Shown here one piece after another: positions 20,054-24,143 of a stretch of DNA of 36,559 nucleotides. Each line of letters opens with the position of its first letter. Positions within the stretch are counted from its first letter, which is position 1. The translations under genes and the position numbers were made by a program. The DNA lies in the IMG/VR virus record IMGVR_UViG_3300026518_000028, positions 1 through 36,559 of that record. One strand, 5' to 3'. The stretch comes from a virus. The notes under the pieces were generated by a model that searched no databases, was not told the origin of the DNA, and saw only the letters and a list, made by a program, of their open reading frames with translations.

Positions 20054-20611
20054 TTATCTTCCATGGTTAAAGTTAAATCCGTGTTTAGTCTCAGCCAATT
20101 TGCGAGCCTTCGCGGCATCATCTATATTGTCGTAAAACCCTAGGTTTTCCTGAATTCCTTCACATCTTATTTGCGCGTGCCATTTCTTGGCTGCTTTATG
20201 CCAACAAACGCCATGAACGCCACTAGTGTTGCATTTCGACAAAACTCTATTATGTGAATTGTCCAAGTTTGTAGCGGGGCGTAAGTTAGCGATTCTATTG
20301 TCAGACCGAACGCCGTTGATGTGATCAATCTGGTCCACTGGCCAAGCCCCCGTTTCTATTGCCCAAATTACGCGGTGCGCGCGGTGCCATTGGCACATAA
20401 TTGGGCCTCGCATATACCCACTACCGTCGTTGGAGTTCATAGCTATTTTACCAGCGTATCTTCCATTCCACTTGTTACAAGTGTGTTTGGCAGAATGCCG
20501 CCCGATCTTAAACATGTCAGGAGTGCGCTCGCGCCAAAACAGTTTGCCAGTATCCGGCTCGTAGCGTAAGAGCTTGCGTAATAATTCAGGGGGTGGTAAA
20601 TCTTTCGACAT
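20054..20611 (-). CDS. HNH homing endonuclease with AP2 domain (copy 1)
   Basis: The 185-residue product starts MSKDLPPPELLRKLLRYEPD with GKLFWRERTPDMF. The HNH core has AHRVIWAIETGAWPVDQ followed by DHINGVRSDNRIANL, and the C-terminal AP2 DNA-binding domain follows (SGVHGVCWHKAAKKWHAQIR). This is a standard free-standing phage homing endonuclease. It is a clear paralogue of 23577-24143 on the other strand. The AAAGGACTAGCCA before ATG 20611 matches the other copy's ribosome site, and a promoter and hairpin precede it. Confidence 0.88.
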   Translation of the reverse strand: MSKDLPPPELLRKLLRYEPDTGKLFWRERTPDMFKIGRHSAKHTCNKWNGRYAGKIAMNSNDGSGYMRGPIMCQWHRAHRVIWAIETGAWPVDQIDHINGVRSDNRIANLRPATNLDNSHNRVLSKCNTSGVHGVCWHKAAKKWHAQIRCEGIQENLGFYDNIDDAAKARKLAETKHGFNFNHGR

Positions 20612-20635
20612 TGGCTAGTCCTTTAGCTGATCGTT

Positions 20636-20662
20636 GGCGAGGGTGTTGATGCACCGCTCGCC
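20636..20662 (-). promoter_or_regulatory. 5-prime leader hairpin of HNH gene (copy 1)
   Basis: On the minus strand GGCGAG-C-GGTG-CATCAA-CACC-CTCGCC forms a 10-bp hairpin with one bulged C and a hexaloop, starting close to the predicted transcript start. The second HNH gene has the same shape with different stem bases. Confidence 0.65.
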
Positions 20663-20665
20663 ACT

Positions 20666-20694
20666 TTTATAGCATGAACGCTAATCAATCTCAA
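20666..20694 (-). promoter_or_regulatory. promoter of HNH/HD/methyltransferase genes
   Basis: On the minus strand TTGAGA (20694-20689) and TATAAA (20671-20666) are 17 bases apart, close to sigma70 consensus. The -35 overlaps the end of the 20-aa ORF. GCTATAAAA is shared with the promoter of the other HNH gene. Confidence 0.65.
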
Positions 20695-20753
20695 CAGCCT
20701 AATCGGCGCACAAAGCAGGCTTTCCAAAGGGCGGCTACCTTTTCAGGTGTCAT
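20691..20753 (-). CDS. possible 20-aa ORF
   Basis: ATG 20753 has GAGGAAAGC upstream and overlaps the end of the 55-aa gene; the frame MTPEKVAALWKACFVRRLGC stops at 20691. It resembles a short helix with two Cys. The HNH promoter begins within it, so it may be the remnant of a longer gene cut when the HNH cassette arrived. Function unknown. Confidence 0.4.
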   Translation of the reverse strand: MTPEKVAALWKACFVRRLGC

Positions 20754-20910
20754 TGCTTTCCTCTTTGCTTTCCACCAGTCCTACCTTCATAAGCGCCTCT
20801 ATTGTAAACAGTAGTGTGTGGTGTAGGGCTTGCTGGTGATGGGCTGGCATATCGTCAAATCCACGGTGAAGCAGTTTCAGGGCTTCACGCTCTTTGTCGG
20901 CGTCAGTCAT
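20743..20910 (-). CDS. small protein, 55 aa
   Basis: ATG 20910 overlaps the stop of the gene before it (ATGA). The product MTDADKEREALKLLHRGFDD, then HHQQALHHTLLFTIEALMKV, is a short helical, His-rich protein ending in SKEESNDT. No family recognised. Its end overlaps the 20-aa ORF, so all members of this island are coupled. Confidence 0.55.
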   Translation of the reverse strand: MTDADKEREALKLLHRGFDDMPAHHQQALHHTLLFTIEALMKVGLVESKEESNDT

Positions 20911-21236
20911 TGGGTTTCATCCGGTGTGGTAATAGGCCGCCATGTGGTAGGAATGAATAGCCCGTGCTTCCCATAATAGAACACAGGCCGCTTCGGGGCT
21001 TCAATACTGCTCCTTGCCCAGCATTGATGCGCGCCATGAGATTTATTCCAGCCTTCAATGTTAGTCCCGTCCCGTGGTGCCGCTTCCATATCTGTATTCC
21101 ACTCGCAGGCTTGTAGGGCGTCAGCCATTGCTAGCAAAAGCTCCTCAGCATCATATCTCTGCCCGAGAAGAACGGTTGGCAAAATGCGACTCCCTTTTGC
21201 CTTACGGGCGGCTTCTATTAGTTTACTATTACTCAT
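20907..21236 (-). CDS. DUF551-like small protein, 109 aa
   Basis: AGGAGATC precedes ATG 21236. After a helical start (LIEAARKAKGSRILPTVLLG, DAEELLLAMADALQ) comes EAAPRDGTNIEGWNKSHGAH and a final W-x-P (FIPTTWRPIT). The 'M-x-A-P-R-D-G-T-x-I-x-G-W ... W-R-P' pattern is common in small phage proteins (DUF551-like) of unknown role. It is encoded between two small unknown ORFs in the leftward island. Confidence 0.55.
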   Translation of the reverse strand: MSNSKLIEAARKAKGSRILPTVLLGQRYDAEELLLAMADALQACEWNTDMEAAPRDGTNIEGWNKSHGAHQCWARSSIEAPKRPVFYYGKHGLFIPTTWRPITTPDETQ

Positions 21237-21432
21237 CTTGATCTCCTAATTTTGGCGTGTCATATTGCTTGGAAATAAATACGCATCTCGCCTTTGCTTC
21301 TTGTGGTGTTTCATATTCTCCGAGAGCCATGCGGCCCTCATAAGCAACATACACACCGTTTTCTAGACACACGAACCACACGTCATCTGCGCTCTTGTGT
21401 TCGTTGCCATGCCTTTCCCACTCAATCACCAT
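21229..21432 (-). CDS. small acidic/aromatic protein, 67 aa
   Basis: GGAGAACAAG precedes ATG 21432, which lies inside the end of the 67-aa gene upstream. The product has DDVWFVCLENGVYVAYEGRM and ALGEYETPQEAKARCVFISK, a small beta-alpha pattern like short phage proteins with a 'TPEEA' helix. No family recognised. Overlaps both neighbours. Confidence 0.55.
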   Translation of the reverse strand: MVIEWERHGNEHKSADDVWFVCLENGVYVAYEGRMALGEYETPQEAKARCVFISKQYDTPKLGDQDE

Positions 21433-21625
21433 CTTGTTCTCCTAGCGCTGCTATTTGCGCGCGGTCAGTGTTGGTGGTGTGGGCCTCAATTTTACGGAGA
21501 TCGGCCTGTAACAACCTATATTCGGCTTGCATCCTGAAAAACCTTGGGTCGCCCCGTCGTTTAGCTCTGCGTTTATTTCTAATTAGGTTCTGCAAACGCC
21601 TCCTTAGCTTGCCACCACTACTCAT
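21422..21625 (-). CDS. small very basic protein, 67 aa
   Basis: The N-terminus is strongly basic (GGKLRRRLQNLIRNKRRAKR) and continues as a helix (FRMQAEYRLLQADLRKIEAH). ATG 21625 overlaps the stop of the ribbon-helix-helix gene (ATGA). The charge suggests nucleic-acid binding. No known family recognised; a role with the upstream RHH protein is possible but unproved. Confidence 0.5.
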   Translation of the reverse strand: MSSGGKLRRRLQNLIRNKRRAKRRGDPRFFRMQAEYRLLQADLRKIEAHTTNTDRAQIAALGEQDGD

Positions 21626-21777
21626 TCCTCGGCCTCCTTTTTGGCTCGGGCTGCTAGGGCCTCTTTAATTAAATGCTCCGCTATTTTAGCGTTGCTCCGG
21701 TCCTCGGTTTTAGCCAGCAACCTAATTTGTGCGGCTAACTCTCGGCTTGGGTAAATTGTCATTTTTTCTGTTGGCAT
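21622..21777 (-). CDS. ribbon-helix-helix regulator, 51 aa
   Basis: AAAGGAGCAATT precedes ATG 21777. The product MPTEKMTIYPSRELAAQIRL continues LAKTEDRSNAKIAEHLIKEA, which fits a small Arc/MetJ-like ribbon-helix-helix: one strand (KMTIYPS) and two helices. As the first gene of the leftward island it faces a divergent promoter region (21778-21881) with repeated ATACC/GGTAT, a natural place for auto-regulation. Too short for extra domains. Confidence 0.65.
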   Translation of the reverse strand: MPTEKMTIYPSRELAAQIRLLAKTEDRSNAKIAEHLIKEALAARAKKEAEE

Positions 21778-21821
21778 AATTGCTCCTTTCTAAATATTAC
21801 CGTATCATACCGCTTTATACC

Positions 21822-21850
21822 TTGCAATAGGTAATGTGGCGTGCTATGTG
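21822..21850 (+). promoter_or_regulatory. rightward promoter in divergent region
   Basis: TTGCAA (21822-21827) and TATGTG (21845-21850) are 17 bases apart, 31 bases before ATG 21882. ATTACC/GGTAAT and ATACC repeats in 21796-21834 could be operator sites for the divergently encoded RHH protein. Confidence 0.45.
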
Positions 21851-21881
21851 TAAGGAACACAAAACACCGAAAGGAAGAACG

Positions 21882-22061
21882 ATGTTACGCCCAATTACCC
21901 GCATGGATAGAGATGATTTACGTGCCCGTAGTGAAGAATATCAATACCGCTATGATTTGGGTGCCAATATGCATTCAAAAGGCTTTTCTTTAGGCCCGGC
22001 TCCCGATCCGTTTTTTGCTGATGGTTGGCATGATGCTGAAGCGCAAAGTAACCGCCCCTAG
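21882..22061 (+). CDS. small protein, 59 aa
   Basis: I choose ATG 21882 (GAAAGGAAGAACG before it) rather than an upstream in-frame ATG that lacks a ribosome site. The product MLRPITRMDRDDLRARSEEY then DLGANMHSKGFSLGPAPDPF and WHDAEAQSNRP is small and charged. It is the first gene of the second rightward block. No family recognised. Confidence 0.55.
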   Translation: MLRPITRMDRDDLRARSEEYQYRYDLGANMHSKGFSLGPAPDPFFADGWHDAEAQSNRP

Positions 22062-22080
22062 GACAGAGAGGAAAGACACA

Positions 22081-22437
22081 ATGCCTGGACCAAGATACAC
22101 AAATCCAGAATACAAAGCGGAGCTGGTTAAAAACCTACGCGAAGCCGAATCCGAATGGCGCAAGGGTGCCGACTGGCCGAATGAATTCGACATGGACAAG
22201 TGGGATATGTCGCGCGACAAAATATGCACAATGCATGCGAGTTGCGATGACTGTTTTGTCACTTCTGCTACGGGCGGCACAAATTGCGTGGAGTCCCCGA
22301 TTGCAGAGGCTATCGGGCTGCATGGTGATTGGGCGGGTGAAAAGGACGGCCCAGCTTATGACGAATGGCGGGCGGGCGCGGTCAAGGTGGCGGAATTCTT
22401 CGATGATCTGTTGCAGAAAGCGGAGGCATTAATATGA
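22081..22437 (+). CDS. cysteine-containing hypothetical protein, 118 aa
   Basis: GAGAGGAAAG precedes ATG 22081. The product has a helical N-terminus (NPEYKAELVKNLREAESEWR) and then DKICTMHASCDDCFVTSATG with C-x6-C-x2-C and a further Cys (GTNCVESP), which could bind a metal. The C-terminal helix is EWRAGAVKVAEFFDDLLQKA. No known domain recognised. The frame is coupled to the next gene by ATGA. Confidence 0.55.
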   Translation: MPGPRYTNPEYKAELVKNLREAESEWRKGADWPNEFDMDKWDMSRDKICTMHASCDDCFVTSATGGTNCVESPIAEAIGLHGDWAGEKDGPAYDEWRAGAVKVAEFFDDLLQKAEALI

Positions 22438-22709
22438 CACACACGAAAGAGCCTTGGGAGGTCATACATACAGATGCTGGCTTGATGGTCAGTGTTCCCG
22501 CTATAGGTAAATACGGCAGGCCGTTGTTAACCACGCCCCGCAGTGATGACCCTGCAAGGGCGGTGGTTTGCGTCAACGCCATGGCAGGCATTCGCGCCCC
22601 AGAAGCATGGGTGAAGGCCGCTAAGCGGGTGCAAGAGCTGGCCGTGAAGTCAGGCTTTCCGGTGGAGCTGGCCGAGGCGTTGTTGGATATGCGGGAGTCT
22701 GAAGGATGA
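22434..22709 (+). CDS. small phage accessory protein, 91 aa
   Basis: The product opens MTHTKEPWEVIHTDAGLMVS and has DDPARAVVCVNAMAGIRAPE followed by AWVKAAKRVQELAV. The K-E/G-P-W-x-V ... R-A-V-x-C-V-N-A-x-A-G-I pattern is a widespread short phage family of unknown function, often encoded in early accessory regions. ATGA overlap at both ends. No catalytic residues apparent. Confidence 0.6.
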   Translation: MTHTKEPWEVIHTDAGLMVSVPAIGKYGRPLLTTPRSDDPARAVVCVNAMAGIRAPEAWVKAAKRVQELAVKSGFPVELAEALLDMRESEG

Positions 22710-22948
22710 TAAGTGAGGCCTTTCCTGTTGTGGTAACAGAAACCAAGCAAAAAGATGCGTGGTTTAGTGCTAATGTAGGTAAAACTGGGCGAACGAGAAC
22801 GGTTTCCGCTCATGCGGTGAAGATATTCATTGGTCGCAGTTCATTTATTAGTTCAACAAGATATAGCTCTCGCGCAAAAGCCGAGGCTGCTGCCAAGCGG
22901 ATAATGGCCAAGCACGGGAAAGCCAAAAAGGAGGTGCAAGATGACTGA
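22706..22948 (+). CDS. small basic protein, 80 aa, EVQDD end
   Basis: The product MISEAFPVVVTETKQKDAWF then SAHAVKIFIGRSSFISSTRY and a Lys-rich helix ends KEVQDD. The last 18 bases of the gene, including the next start, are repeated exactly at the end of the following gene. The N-terminal half looks like mixed beta strands. No family recognised. ATGA-type overlaps on both sides. Confidence 0.55.
   Translation: MISEAFPVVVTETKQKDAWFSANVGKTGRTRTVSAHAVKIFIGRSSFISSTRYSSRAKAEAAAKRIMAKHGKAKKEVQDD
22931..22948 (+). repeat. 18-bp direct repeat, copy 1 (gene junction)
   Basis: GAGGTGCAAGATGACTGA is found here and again at 23139-23156. It contains the ribosome site, the ATG of the next gene and the stop of the current one, so each copy ends one protein in EVQDD and starts the next with MT. 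Confidence 0.7.
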
Positions 22949-23156
22949 GGTAAGCCACGGGTGGGCCATTGTCGCTCGCAGCCAGCGCTCAAGCTGGATT
23001 ATGCCCTTCACGATTCAACGCACAAGAGCGGAAGCGATACAGCGCTTTGTTGATATTTGGGAGAACAAAGAATTTGGCCGGAAGCAATGGTTAAAAGATC
23101 GTAAAGCTGGCCGCGTTAAGTGCGTGCGGGTCGTAACAGAGGTGCAAGATGACTGA
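22941..23156 (+). CDS. small basic protein, 71 aa, EVQDD end
   Basis: The product MTEVSHGWAIVARSQRSSWI then MPFTIQRTRAEAIQRFVDIW is a compact alpha/beta protein ending VVTEVQDD. It shares its C-terminal EVQDD and the DNA of the junction with the gene before it. The R-T-R-A-E-A helix resembles the R-A-K-A-E-A of the previous protein, so the two may be distant duplicates. Function unknown. Confidence 0.55.
   Translation: MTEVSHGWAIVARSQRSSWIMPFTIQRTRAEAIQRFVDIWENKEFGRKQWLKDRKAGRVKCVRVVTEVQDD
23139..23156 (+). repeat. 18-bp direct repeat, copy 2 (gene junction)
   Basis: An exact copy of 22931-22948, 208 bases on. It again links a stop and a start. Confidence 0.7.
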
Positions 23157-23499
23157 TTTAGCAAAGCTGATTGAAGCTGTGGAGGAAGGGAGTATTGATT
23201 TTAACGAATTCCTGCCGCGCGACAATTTTGACATGATGCGCAAAGCGATGCCCATAGATGATTGGGGCGTTTTCGTTAAAGCCTATGAAGGATCGGTGGA
23301 TGCAGCCATTGCCTTAATGGCGGAGTTGCTGGGGGATAGATGGGGATTTGTGATACGAGAGGGGTTTGCAAAAGTTCAACACCCAAAAACATGGAGAAAA
23401 GACATAGCCATTTTTGACAGCATAACAAGCCGTGCGCTACTAACAGCCACCCTCAAAGCTCTTGAATGGGACCAATTAAACGGCAAACTAGACATTTAA
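23149..23499 (+). CDS. hypothetical protein, 116 aa
   Basis: The product MTDLAKLIEAVEEGSIDFNE then MMRKAMPIDDWGVFVKAYEG and VDAAIALMAELLGDRWGFVI is a small helical protein. The 'E-A-V-E-x-G ... A-Y-x-G-S-x-D-A-A-x-A-L' motif recurs in phage accessory proteins of unknown role. No catalytic signature. A promoter (23489-23517) begins in its last codons, so the HNH gene after it can be expressed alone. Confidence 0.6.
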   Translation: MTDLAKLIEAVEEGSIDFNEFLPRDNFDMMRKAMPIDDWGVFVKAYEGSVDAAIALMAELLGDRWGFVIREGFAKVQHPKTWRKDIAIFDSITSRALLTATLKALEWDQLNGKLDI

Positions 23500-23517
23500 C
23501 TACATTTGGGCTATAAA
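23489..23517 (+). promoter_or_regulatory. promoter of HNH gene (copy 2)
   Basis: TAGACA (23489-23494) and TATAAA (23512-23517) are 17 bases apart. Its GCTATAAAA is the same as in the copy-1 promoter. Confidence 0.65.
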
Positions 23518-23520
23518 ATA

Positions 23521-23549
23521 GGAGCCGCGATGCGTCAACATCCGGCCCC
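23521..23549 (+). promoter_or_regulatory. 5-prime leader hairpin of HNH gene (copy 2)
   Basis: GGAGCCG-C-GATG-CGTCAA-CATC-CGGCCCC folds with a bulged C, a 4-bp upper stem and a hexaloop, with one A-C mismatch in the lower stem. The shape equals copy 1 (20636-20662), while stem pairs differ in a compensatory way. Confidence 0.65.
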
Positions 23550-23576
23550 ATGATCGGCAACAAAAGGACTGTGCCA

Positions 23577-24143
23577 ATGAATAAACGATTAATACCTCAA
23601 GAGCTATTATGCAAGATATTAAAGTGCATCCCTGAAACAGGGGAGTTGTTTTGGCGTGAGCGCACGTCTGATCTATTTTCAAATAGTGCGCGTGCAAATT
23701 GCTGGAATAGTCGTTGGCCTGGCAAGCCAGCCCTCGCTACTATCGACGGTGTAACCGGCTACAAGCACGGTGATATTTTTTACAGGAAGCATTACGCACA
23801 TCGGGTTGTTTGGGCGATGGAAACTGGTGCTTGGCCCGTGGACCATATTGACCATATCAACCATGATAGGGCCGATAACAGGATAGCAAACTTGCGGGAG
23901 GTTACCCGTGTAGAGAATGGAAAGAATTTGAGCATTTCAAAGCTAAATACAAGCGGCGTTACTGGGGTTTGTTGGTGTAAAACCTCCCAAAAATGGCACG
24001 CACGTATCGTAGTTGAAAAACGCAAAATTCACCTAGGGTATTTCGATGCCAAAAAAGATGCAATCAATGCCCGCGCCGCAGCAAATATTAAATACAAATT
24101 TCACGAAAATCATGGGAGAAAAAACAATGGCCGAAGCACCTGA
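23577..24143 (+). CDS. HNH homing endonuclease with AP2 domain (copy 2)
   Basis: I choose ATG 23577 because AAAGGACTGTGCCA before it equals the ribosome site of copy 1; ATG 23550 is in frame but lies next to the hairpin. The 188-residue product has ETGELFWRERTSDLF, AHRVVWAMETGAWPV, DHINHDRADNRIANL and the AP2-like SGVTGVCWCKTSQKWHARIV. It is closely similar to the leftward copy over its length. Its end overlaps the next gene by 17 bases, as if inserted into an existing junction. Homing is known for the family; activity here is inferred. Confidence 0.88.
   Translation: MNKRLIPQELLCKILKCIPETGELFWRERTSDLFSNSARANCWNSRWPGKPALATIDGVTGYKHGDIFYRKHYAHRVVWAMETGAWPVDHIDHINHDRADNRIANLREVTRVENGKNLSISKLNTSGVTGVCWCKTSQKWHARIVVEKRKIHLGYFDAKKDAINARAAANIKYKFHENHGRKNNGRST

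Follow-up and report, generated by a model that had tools for sequence, protein, structure and literature searches.

In the phage genome record IMGVR_UViG_3300026518_000028 (36,559 nt, analyzed at full length and called the window below), two genes for HNH_3 endonucleases, HNH-A and HNH-B, are each preceded by an RNA leader with two hairpins. This leader probably serves as the target in a cis-antisense RNA locus that keeps free-standing homing endonucleases repressed. That the conserved two-hairpin leader is a real sequence feature is close to certain and, judged from comparison among phages, it is a conserved, covarying regulatory RNA kept by selection. The sequences back the covariation of the leader, its sense promoter, its recurrence before nucleases, and selection for both an antisense structure and an antisense promoter.

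The two leaders share one plan. On the minus strand, the HNH-A leader reads TATAAAAG-TGGCGAG-C-GGTG-CATCAA-CACC-CTCGCCA, ACGATCA, GCTA-AAGGAC-TAGC, CA-ATG; on the plus strand, the HNH-B leader reads TATAAAATA-GG(A)GCCG-C-GATG-CGTCAA-CATC-CGGC(C)CC, ATGATC, GGCA(A)CA-AAAGGAC-TG-TGCC, A-ATG. The first hairpin (HP1) has a folding z-score of -4.3 at HNH-A and -3.0 at HNH-B. An earlier note on this DNA had described hairpins of identical design at both genes, and all of its sequence details were confirmed, its hairpin being HP1; the second hairpin (HP2), which presents the Shine-Dalgarno (SD) sequence in its loop at both genes and ends 1 to 2 nt 5' of the ATG, had been missed. At HNH-A, HP1 begins within ~4 nt of the predicted transcription start, and at HNH-B, the lower stem of HP1 contains one A·C mismatch that becomes a G·U pair on the antisense strand.

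The regions 5' of 137 different HNH_3 genes were taken from viral contigs, and the same plan was parsed by hand in 31 distinct HNH_3 (phrog_99) leaders of diverse phages, which is a lower bound. A sigma70-like promoter is followed by a 5'-terminal HP1, a linker R-A-Y-C-A, HP2, a gap of 1 to 7 nt, and the ATG. HP1 consists of a GC-rich lower stem, a bulge or internal loop that varies in side and size, an upper stem of 3 to 6 bp, and the hexaloop C-NNN-AA; HP2 usually has 4 to 5 bp and a 7-nt loop bearing the SD sequence. An automatic two-hairpin descriptor was matched by 25 of 135 HNH upstream regions versus 20 of 1270 regions of other genes from these loci; when the loop motif was required as well, the counts were 18 and 2. 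A loose hairpin descriptor gave no contrast and was discarded.

A MAFFT alignment of the raw leaders was dropped: it misaligned HP2, and therefore the leaders were aligned manually with N padding. In the hand alignment of 26 leaders, 18 of 18 pairs changed on both sides, 98.2% of the cells were paired, and the covariation score was 0.898 compared to 0.184 after shuffling, with slid partners giving no more than 0.143; all these figures are biased upward because the leaders were aligned by structure. The earlier note had held that the RNA shape is kept by selection, as the double changes in all 18 pairs confirm, and had proposed as a test a search for covarying examples before related HNH genes, of which we found at least 31 distinct HNH_3 leaders. 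Its claim that each HNH gene has its own promoter also held across the family: sense promoters starting at most 4 nt from HP1 had a mean score of 7.1 versus -0.8 at control positions (p = 2e-15). The spacer of these sigma70-like promoters is 17 bp in most leaders. Since they start at HP1, the mRNA is predicted to have HP1 right at its 5' end. A strict promoter scan of the window called no sigma70 site, as the -10 reads TATAAA.

A first covariance model, R1, was weak because the N padding had turned into model positions, and it was dropped for R2, an HP1-only model trained solely on HNH leaders. R2 was run over 0.93 Mb of loci and ~125 whole records, and most of its matches sit directly 5' of HNH_3 genes. 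Cultured phages with the leader are the Sulfitobacter phages pCB2047-A and phiGT1 and the Paracoccus phage KLEP18-1. There was no R2 match in Rhizobium, Caulobacter, and enterobacterial phages carrying HNH_3 genes, so the leader covers part of phrog_99 only. Rfam 15 gave no match for the HNH leader in the window and the HNH loci.

The structure of HP1 points to a function on the opposite strand. The loop ends, C1 and A6 in 31 of 38 leaders, are unpaired in the sense RNA and form a U·G pair in the antisense RNA. HP1 was more stable as antisense in 26 of 31 leaders (p = 2e-4), compared to 166 of 400 control upstream regions, and the HNH-B leader folds with -26.2 kcal/mol as antisense versus -19.7 kcal/mol as sense. 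The non-Watson-Crick pairs in the HP1 stems, which were chosen to pair, are five A·C (G·U in antisense) and four G·U, with none else. Read on the plus strand, the A-tract of the HNH-A sense -10 is TTTTATA and lies 3' of the antisense hairpin; a strict scan of the window called no intrinsic terminator on the antisense strand.

Furthermore, the first codons of the nuclease genes appear to be shaped by an antisense promoter. In genes with the element, the first Leu codon, which would be the TAR start of the antisense -10, is YTA in 24 of 28 cases versus 66 of 305 other Leu codons of these genes (p = 1.5e-11). HNH genes without the element have no such bias (26/73 versus 0.375). A TTG-type -35 lies 17 or 18 nt from the YTA codon in 18 of 24 genes; the choice of codons at this predicted -35 did not reach significance. 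Upon synonymous randomization of the first codons, antisense promoter scores of element genes were above expectation (Fisher p = 1e-11), and this excess was larger than in HNH genes without the element (p = 1.4e-6). For HNH-A as a single gene, the synonymous-codon test gave p = 0.08.

Three related leaders bear on the contact between the RNAs. The apical 12 nt of HP1 in L151 are the reverse complement of those in the near-identical L149, and also differ in this way from L152, which suggests a hairpin-templated inversion with function kept. Loops reading TTGACG in the sense strand were also found at L021 and L256. The kissing loop can thus sit on either RNA, which is easily understood for a contact between two RNAs and hard to understand for a hairpin read by a protein.

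Two known loci resemble the predicted arrangement. In Escherichia coli, the SymR promoter is inside the symE open reading frame (ORF), and SymR, which is complementary to the 5' end of symE mRNA, represses translation (PMC1891008). Like the HNH leaders, symE/symR (SymR, RF01809) has its own promoter, an HP1 with the loop CGCCAA, the linker TAATCACAATCA, and an HP2, CTATT-CCTGGAG-AATAG, with the SD sequence in a 7-nt loop followed by ATG, which is the HNH plan in every part. SymR spans the whole symE leader, with its promoter within the ORF as proposed here for the HNH leaders (PMC1891008). On the other hand, symE encodes an AbrB-fold toxin under LexA control on a bacterial chromosome, and its primary sequence is different. 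In phage P22 sar/ant (RF00262), the sense HP1 loop is CGGTAA and the antisense RNA extends over the SD region; transcription of sar initiates at AUG-1 from a promoter 6 nt inside ant and stops at a terminator that is the complement of HP1 and lies 33 to 70 nt 5' of the AUG. P22 ant, in contrast, is read from an upstream promoter shared with arc, and its SD hairpin has a larger, different loop. The C-NNN-AA loop with the SD region downstream, which characterizes a Sar/SymR-type locus, is thus found in all three: in the HNH leaders as the C and A loop ends, in symE as CGCCAA, and in P22 ant as CGGTAA. The sequences back an architecture common to the HNH leaders and symE, which ant shares in HP1 and the SD region. 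By this analogy, the HNH leader would work like sar and symR without belonging to those Rfam families.

R2 itself matched genes other than HNH_3, some of them with HP2: another HNH family, small ORFs, P22-type antirepressors, and E. coli symE. The leader at L240 precedes a 346-amino-acid zinc-finger protein ending in a different HNH domain, and its relatives L253 and L267 share the leader. Antirepressor homologues bear HP1 in many variants, and on the opposite strand of two R2-found antirepressor leaders, Rfam calls Sar RNA, the antisense repressor of ant in P22, with 59.4 and 48.0 bits. The symE leader was one of two R2 matches in 46 kb, and RF01809 matches opposite symE with 95.3 bits. The earlier note had presented the element as a possible new regulatory RNA travelling with the nuclease. 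Its range proved broader, as it also stands before other nuclease families, antirepressors, and symE. In view of the evidence for a Sar/SymR-type arrangement on both strands, which we favor over a sense-only hairpin, a wholly new kind of RNA is unlikely.

The same note had set the element apart from the hairpins of T4 homing endonuclease mRNAs, and this distinction stands. I-TevI, I-TevII, I-TevIII, segB, and Aeh1 mobE have hairpins sequestering the ribosome binding site (PMC2988022, PMC3014915). There, RNA structure limits translation of phage homing endonucleases (PMC2988022, PMC3014915), as is predicted for the HNH leaders. In the T4 type, however, the hairpin in early read-through transcripts hides the ribosome binding site, which late transcripts escape by starting from a promoter within the hairpin. 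Instead of an SD sequence paired in a stem and bypassed from a late promoter downstream, the HNH leaders have a looped SD sequence, a predicted promoter 5' of both hairpins, and a predicted antisense RNA. Another known case is seg43(25) of Aeromonas phage 25, with a stable hairpin directly 5' of the ribosome binding site and no sequestration (PMC2988022); this is a single reported case of a GIY-YIG endonuclease in a T4-like phage. Among the titles and abstracts listed in a search of the open-access literature, there was no report of antisense control of homing endonucleases.

According to the proposed mechanism, each HNH gene would be a self-contained expression unit, with the leader as a Sar/SymR-type antisense-RNA locus. 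The sense mRNA would begin at HP1 and continue through a short linker and HP2, with its looped SD sequence, into the nuclease gene. From a promoter inside the first nuclease codons, an RNA of ~60 to 70 nt would be made from the opposite strand, starting at about the AUG, running through the HP2 complement with an anti-SD loop, and ending at the HP1 complement. First contact would be made between the loops, UU-NNN-G of one RNA and C-NNN-AA of the other, and the duplex would then spread and block the ribosome binding site. The nuclease would be made in short bursts only, for example when the mRNA outpaces the antisense RNA on newly entered phage DNA. Production of the antisense RNA, its pairing, the repression, and its timing are what we infer.

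Several results weigh against this interpretation. HP2 showed no strand preference in the stability test that distinguished HP1, no codon signal is seen for HNH-B by itself (p = 0.52), and element genes have raw antisense promoter scores no higher (4.44) than those of other HNH genes (4.62). The predicted antisense -10 hexamers (TAAATC, TAGATC, etc.) often have no final T, several leaders have a weak antisense U-tract after the HP1 complement or none at all, and the sense -10 offers an explanation for the A-tract. The link to the known systems is also incomplete: the R2 match to symE is weak (E = 0.15), and the P22 ant leader itself was missed by R2. The HNH leaders score below the Rfam SymR gathering score, which only symE itself reaches, and the HNH loci and the window have no Rfam sar match, whereas the R2-found antirepressor leaders do. 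Finally, alignment A3 was fitted by hand.

A leader acting in the sense mRNA only, with HP1 shielding against 5'-end-dependent decay and HP2 tuning translation via the looped SD sequence, seems unlikely to us. It would account for an HP1 that starts at the predicted +1, for an SD sequence kept in an HP2 loop of most often 7 nt, and for the covariation of both hairpins, and there is precedent, as 5'-terminal hairpins stabilize mRNAs such as ompA. A plain stabilizer, however, would not need the conserved loop C-NNN-AA, nor would it explain the greater stability of HP1 on the antisense strand or a synonymous codon bias matching an antisense promoter; moreover, antisense RNAs are known to act on the symE and ant leaders, which have the same HP1. 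We consider it distinctly improbable that the leader is a translational operator, repressed by the nuclease or a host protein bound to HP1 (like a coat-protein operator) or to HP2. A bulge, a 4-bp stem, and a hexaloop are indeed the general design of protein-bound hairpins, and part of the loop is conserved. Yet the leader precedes unrelated proteins (HNH_3, another HNH family, an antirepressor, and SymE), and therefore autoregulation by each product is unlikely; furthermore, the bulge differs in side and size among leaders, and a protein that reads the sequence should not accept an inverted apical loop, as in L151. A CsrA-type GGA site was rejected, as about half of the HP2 loops are without a full GGA.

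HP1 overlaps the predicted transcription start and might act as DNA, either as an inverted-repeat repressor operator or as a recombination or homing site, and a reference title quoted in PMC3014915 has I-TevI acting as a transcriptional autorepressor. We give this very little credence, because the stem sequences vary completely while pairing is kept, unlike in an operator, because HP2 and the placement of the SD sequence relate to translation, and because the asymmetric loop rule and the orientation to the gene are strand specific. Least credible of all is an ordinary promoter with a chance or terminator hairpin, common to the two window genes through recent duplication. HNH-A and HNH-B are indeed homologous (56% protein identity), and with one mismatch allowed, the shared short motifs GCTATAAAA and AAAGGACT alone were at chance levels in the window; the comparative data refute this explanation, since dozens of diverged leaders hold the fold via compensatory changes. 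HP1 as a sense terminator was rejected, as there is no T-tract 3' of it (1.7 T in 10 nt).

The record carries genes for the large terminase, portal, helicase, primase, and endolysin; the features of the two HNH loci are given in Table 1. Genes of the HNH_3/phrog_99 type lie outside introns and are scattered across unrelated phages and positions, as expected for free-standing homing endonucleases. Their neighborhoods differ among phages: the copy of Paracoccus phage KLEP18-1 adjoins a capsid gene on the opposite strand, and those of the Sulfitobacter phages are elsewhere. Between HNH-A and HNH-B, a short ORF (21834-22061, plus strand) lies within a run of small unknown genes.

Table 1. Features of the HNH-A and HNH-B loci (window positions) and leaders compared for the HP1 apical inversion
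Feature	Position	Strand	Evidence
HNH-A, HNH_3 (phrog_99) endonuclease, 185 amino acids	20054..20611	(-)	Pfam PF13392 55.8 bits; phrog_99 200.9 bits
HNH-A sense promoter -35 TTGAGA, 17-bp spacer (predicted)	20689..20694	(-)	
HNH-A sense promoter -10 TATAAA (predicted)	20666..20671	(-)	
HNH-A HP1: 7-bp lower stem, bulged C, 4-bp upper stem, loop CATCAA	20635..20663	(-)	R2 22.2 bits
HNH-A linker ACGATCA (consensus RAYCA)	20628..20634	(-)	
HNH-A HP2: GCTA-AAGGAC-TAGC, SD in loop	20614..20627	(-)	
Predicted antisense RNA to HNH-A leader, ~60 nt, extent inferred	20609..20670	(+)	P22 sar/symR geometry and strand tests
Predicted antisense promoter in HNH-A coding sequence: TTGCGT (20574-20579) - 17 - TAAATC (20597-20602)	20574..20602	(+)	
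HNH-B, HNH_3 (phrog_99) endonuclease, 188 amino acids	23577..24143	(+)	PF13392 and phrog_99 matches
HNH-B sense promoter -35 TAGACA, 17-bp spacer (predicted)	23489..23494	(+)	
HNH-B sense promoter -10 TATAAA (predicted)	23512..23517	(+)	
HNH-B HP1: bulged C, upper stem GATG/CATC, loop CGTCAA	23521..23549	(+)	
HNH-B linker ATGATC	23550..23555	(+)	
HNH-B HP2: GGCA(A)CA-AAAGGAC-TG-TGCC, 7-nt loop with SD	23556..23575	(+)	
Predicted antisense RNA to HNH-B leader, ~67 nt, extent inferred	23510..23579	(-)	sar/symR geometry and strand tests
Candidate antisense promoter, HNH-B, weak: TTGCAT - 17 - TAATCG	23586..23614	(-)	
Leaders compared for apical inversion (L151 relative to L149 and L152)	L149:5921-6003, L151:3049-3131, L152:4085-4167		

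Some further leaders were noted at other loci. In L267, a relative of the L240 HNH gene is preceded, ~100 nt 5' of its start codon, by a leader with the HP1 loop CGCTAA and the HP2 TGACT-ATTTCGG-AGTCA. L242 (pCB2047-A) has a full leader at ~1930-2010 on the minus strand (HP1 loop CGCCAA, HP2 TACCT-GATAAGG-AGGTA) before an unannotated ORF of 26 amino acids, which overlaps a T5orf172-domain gene at its start. At L234:1501-1818 (plus strand), a full leader with the HP2 GCGA-GGGAGGA-TCGC precedes an 86-amino-acid ORF without Pfam or PHROG match; 3' of it are an 81-amino-acid ORF with a weak NUMOD1 match and the terminase small subunit gene. In P22 (L366), the plus strand has a clear HP1-like hairpin at 38091-38120, GGCAAGAGACTG-CGCTAA-CAGCCTCTTGCC followed by TGATC, in an unannotated stretch between the late terminator and the holin gene 13; it possibly belongs to another antisense-controlled small ORF.

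It is, in our judgment, an even call whether Sar, SymR, and the HNH leaders make up a single large superfamily, not joined before, of mobile cassettes for antisense control. Such a cassette would consist of a promoter, a kissing hairpin, a hairpin with the SD sequence, and, concealed within the first codons, a promoter for the antisense RNA. Moving among selfish phage genes of unrelated protein families, it would keep a homing endonuclease, antirepressor, or toxin silent for as long as the antisense RNA is not outrun.

Phages abound in free-standing homing endonucleases, and for those outside T4, few means of keeping them from harming phage or host have been described. If our interpretation is true, an antisense RNA encoded within the nuclease gene would travel along with it and make a host regulator unnecessary, an elegant arrangement for a selfish gene. 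P22 Sar and E. coli SymR, two textbook antisense systems, would be joined to a much wider family, and a simple rule to search for many more members would follow: a first hairpin with a C-NNN-AA loop, an SD hairpin, and a rare Leu codon.

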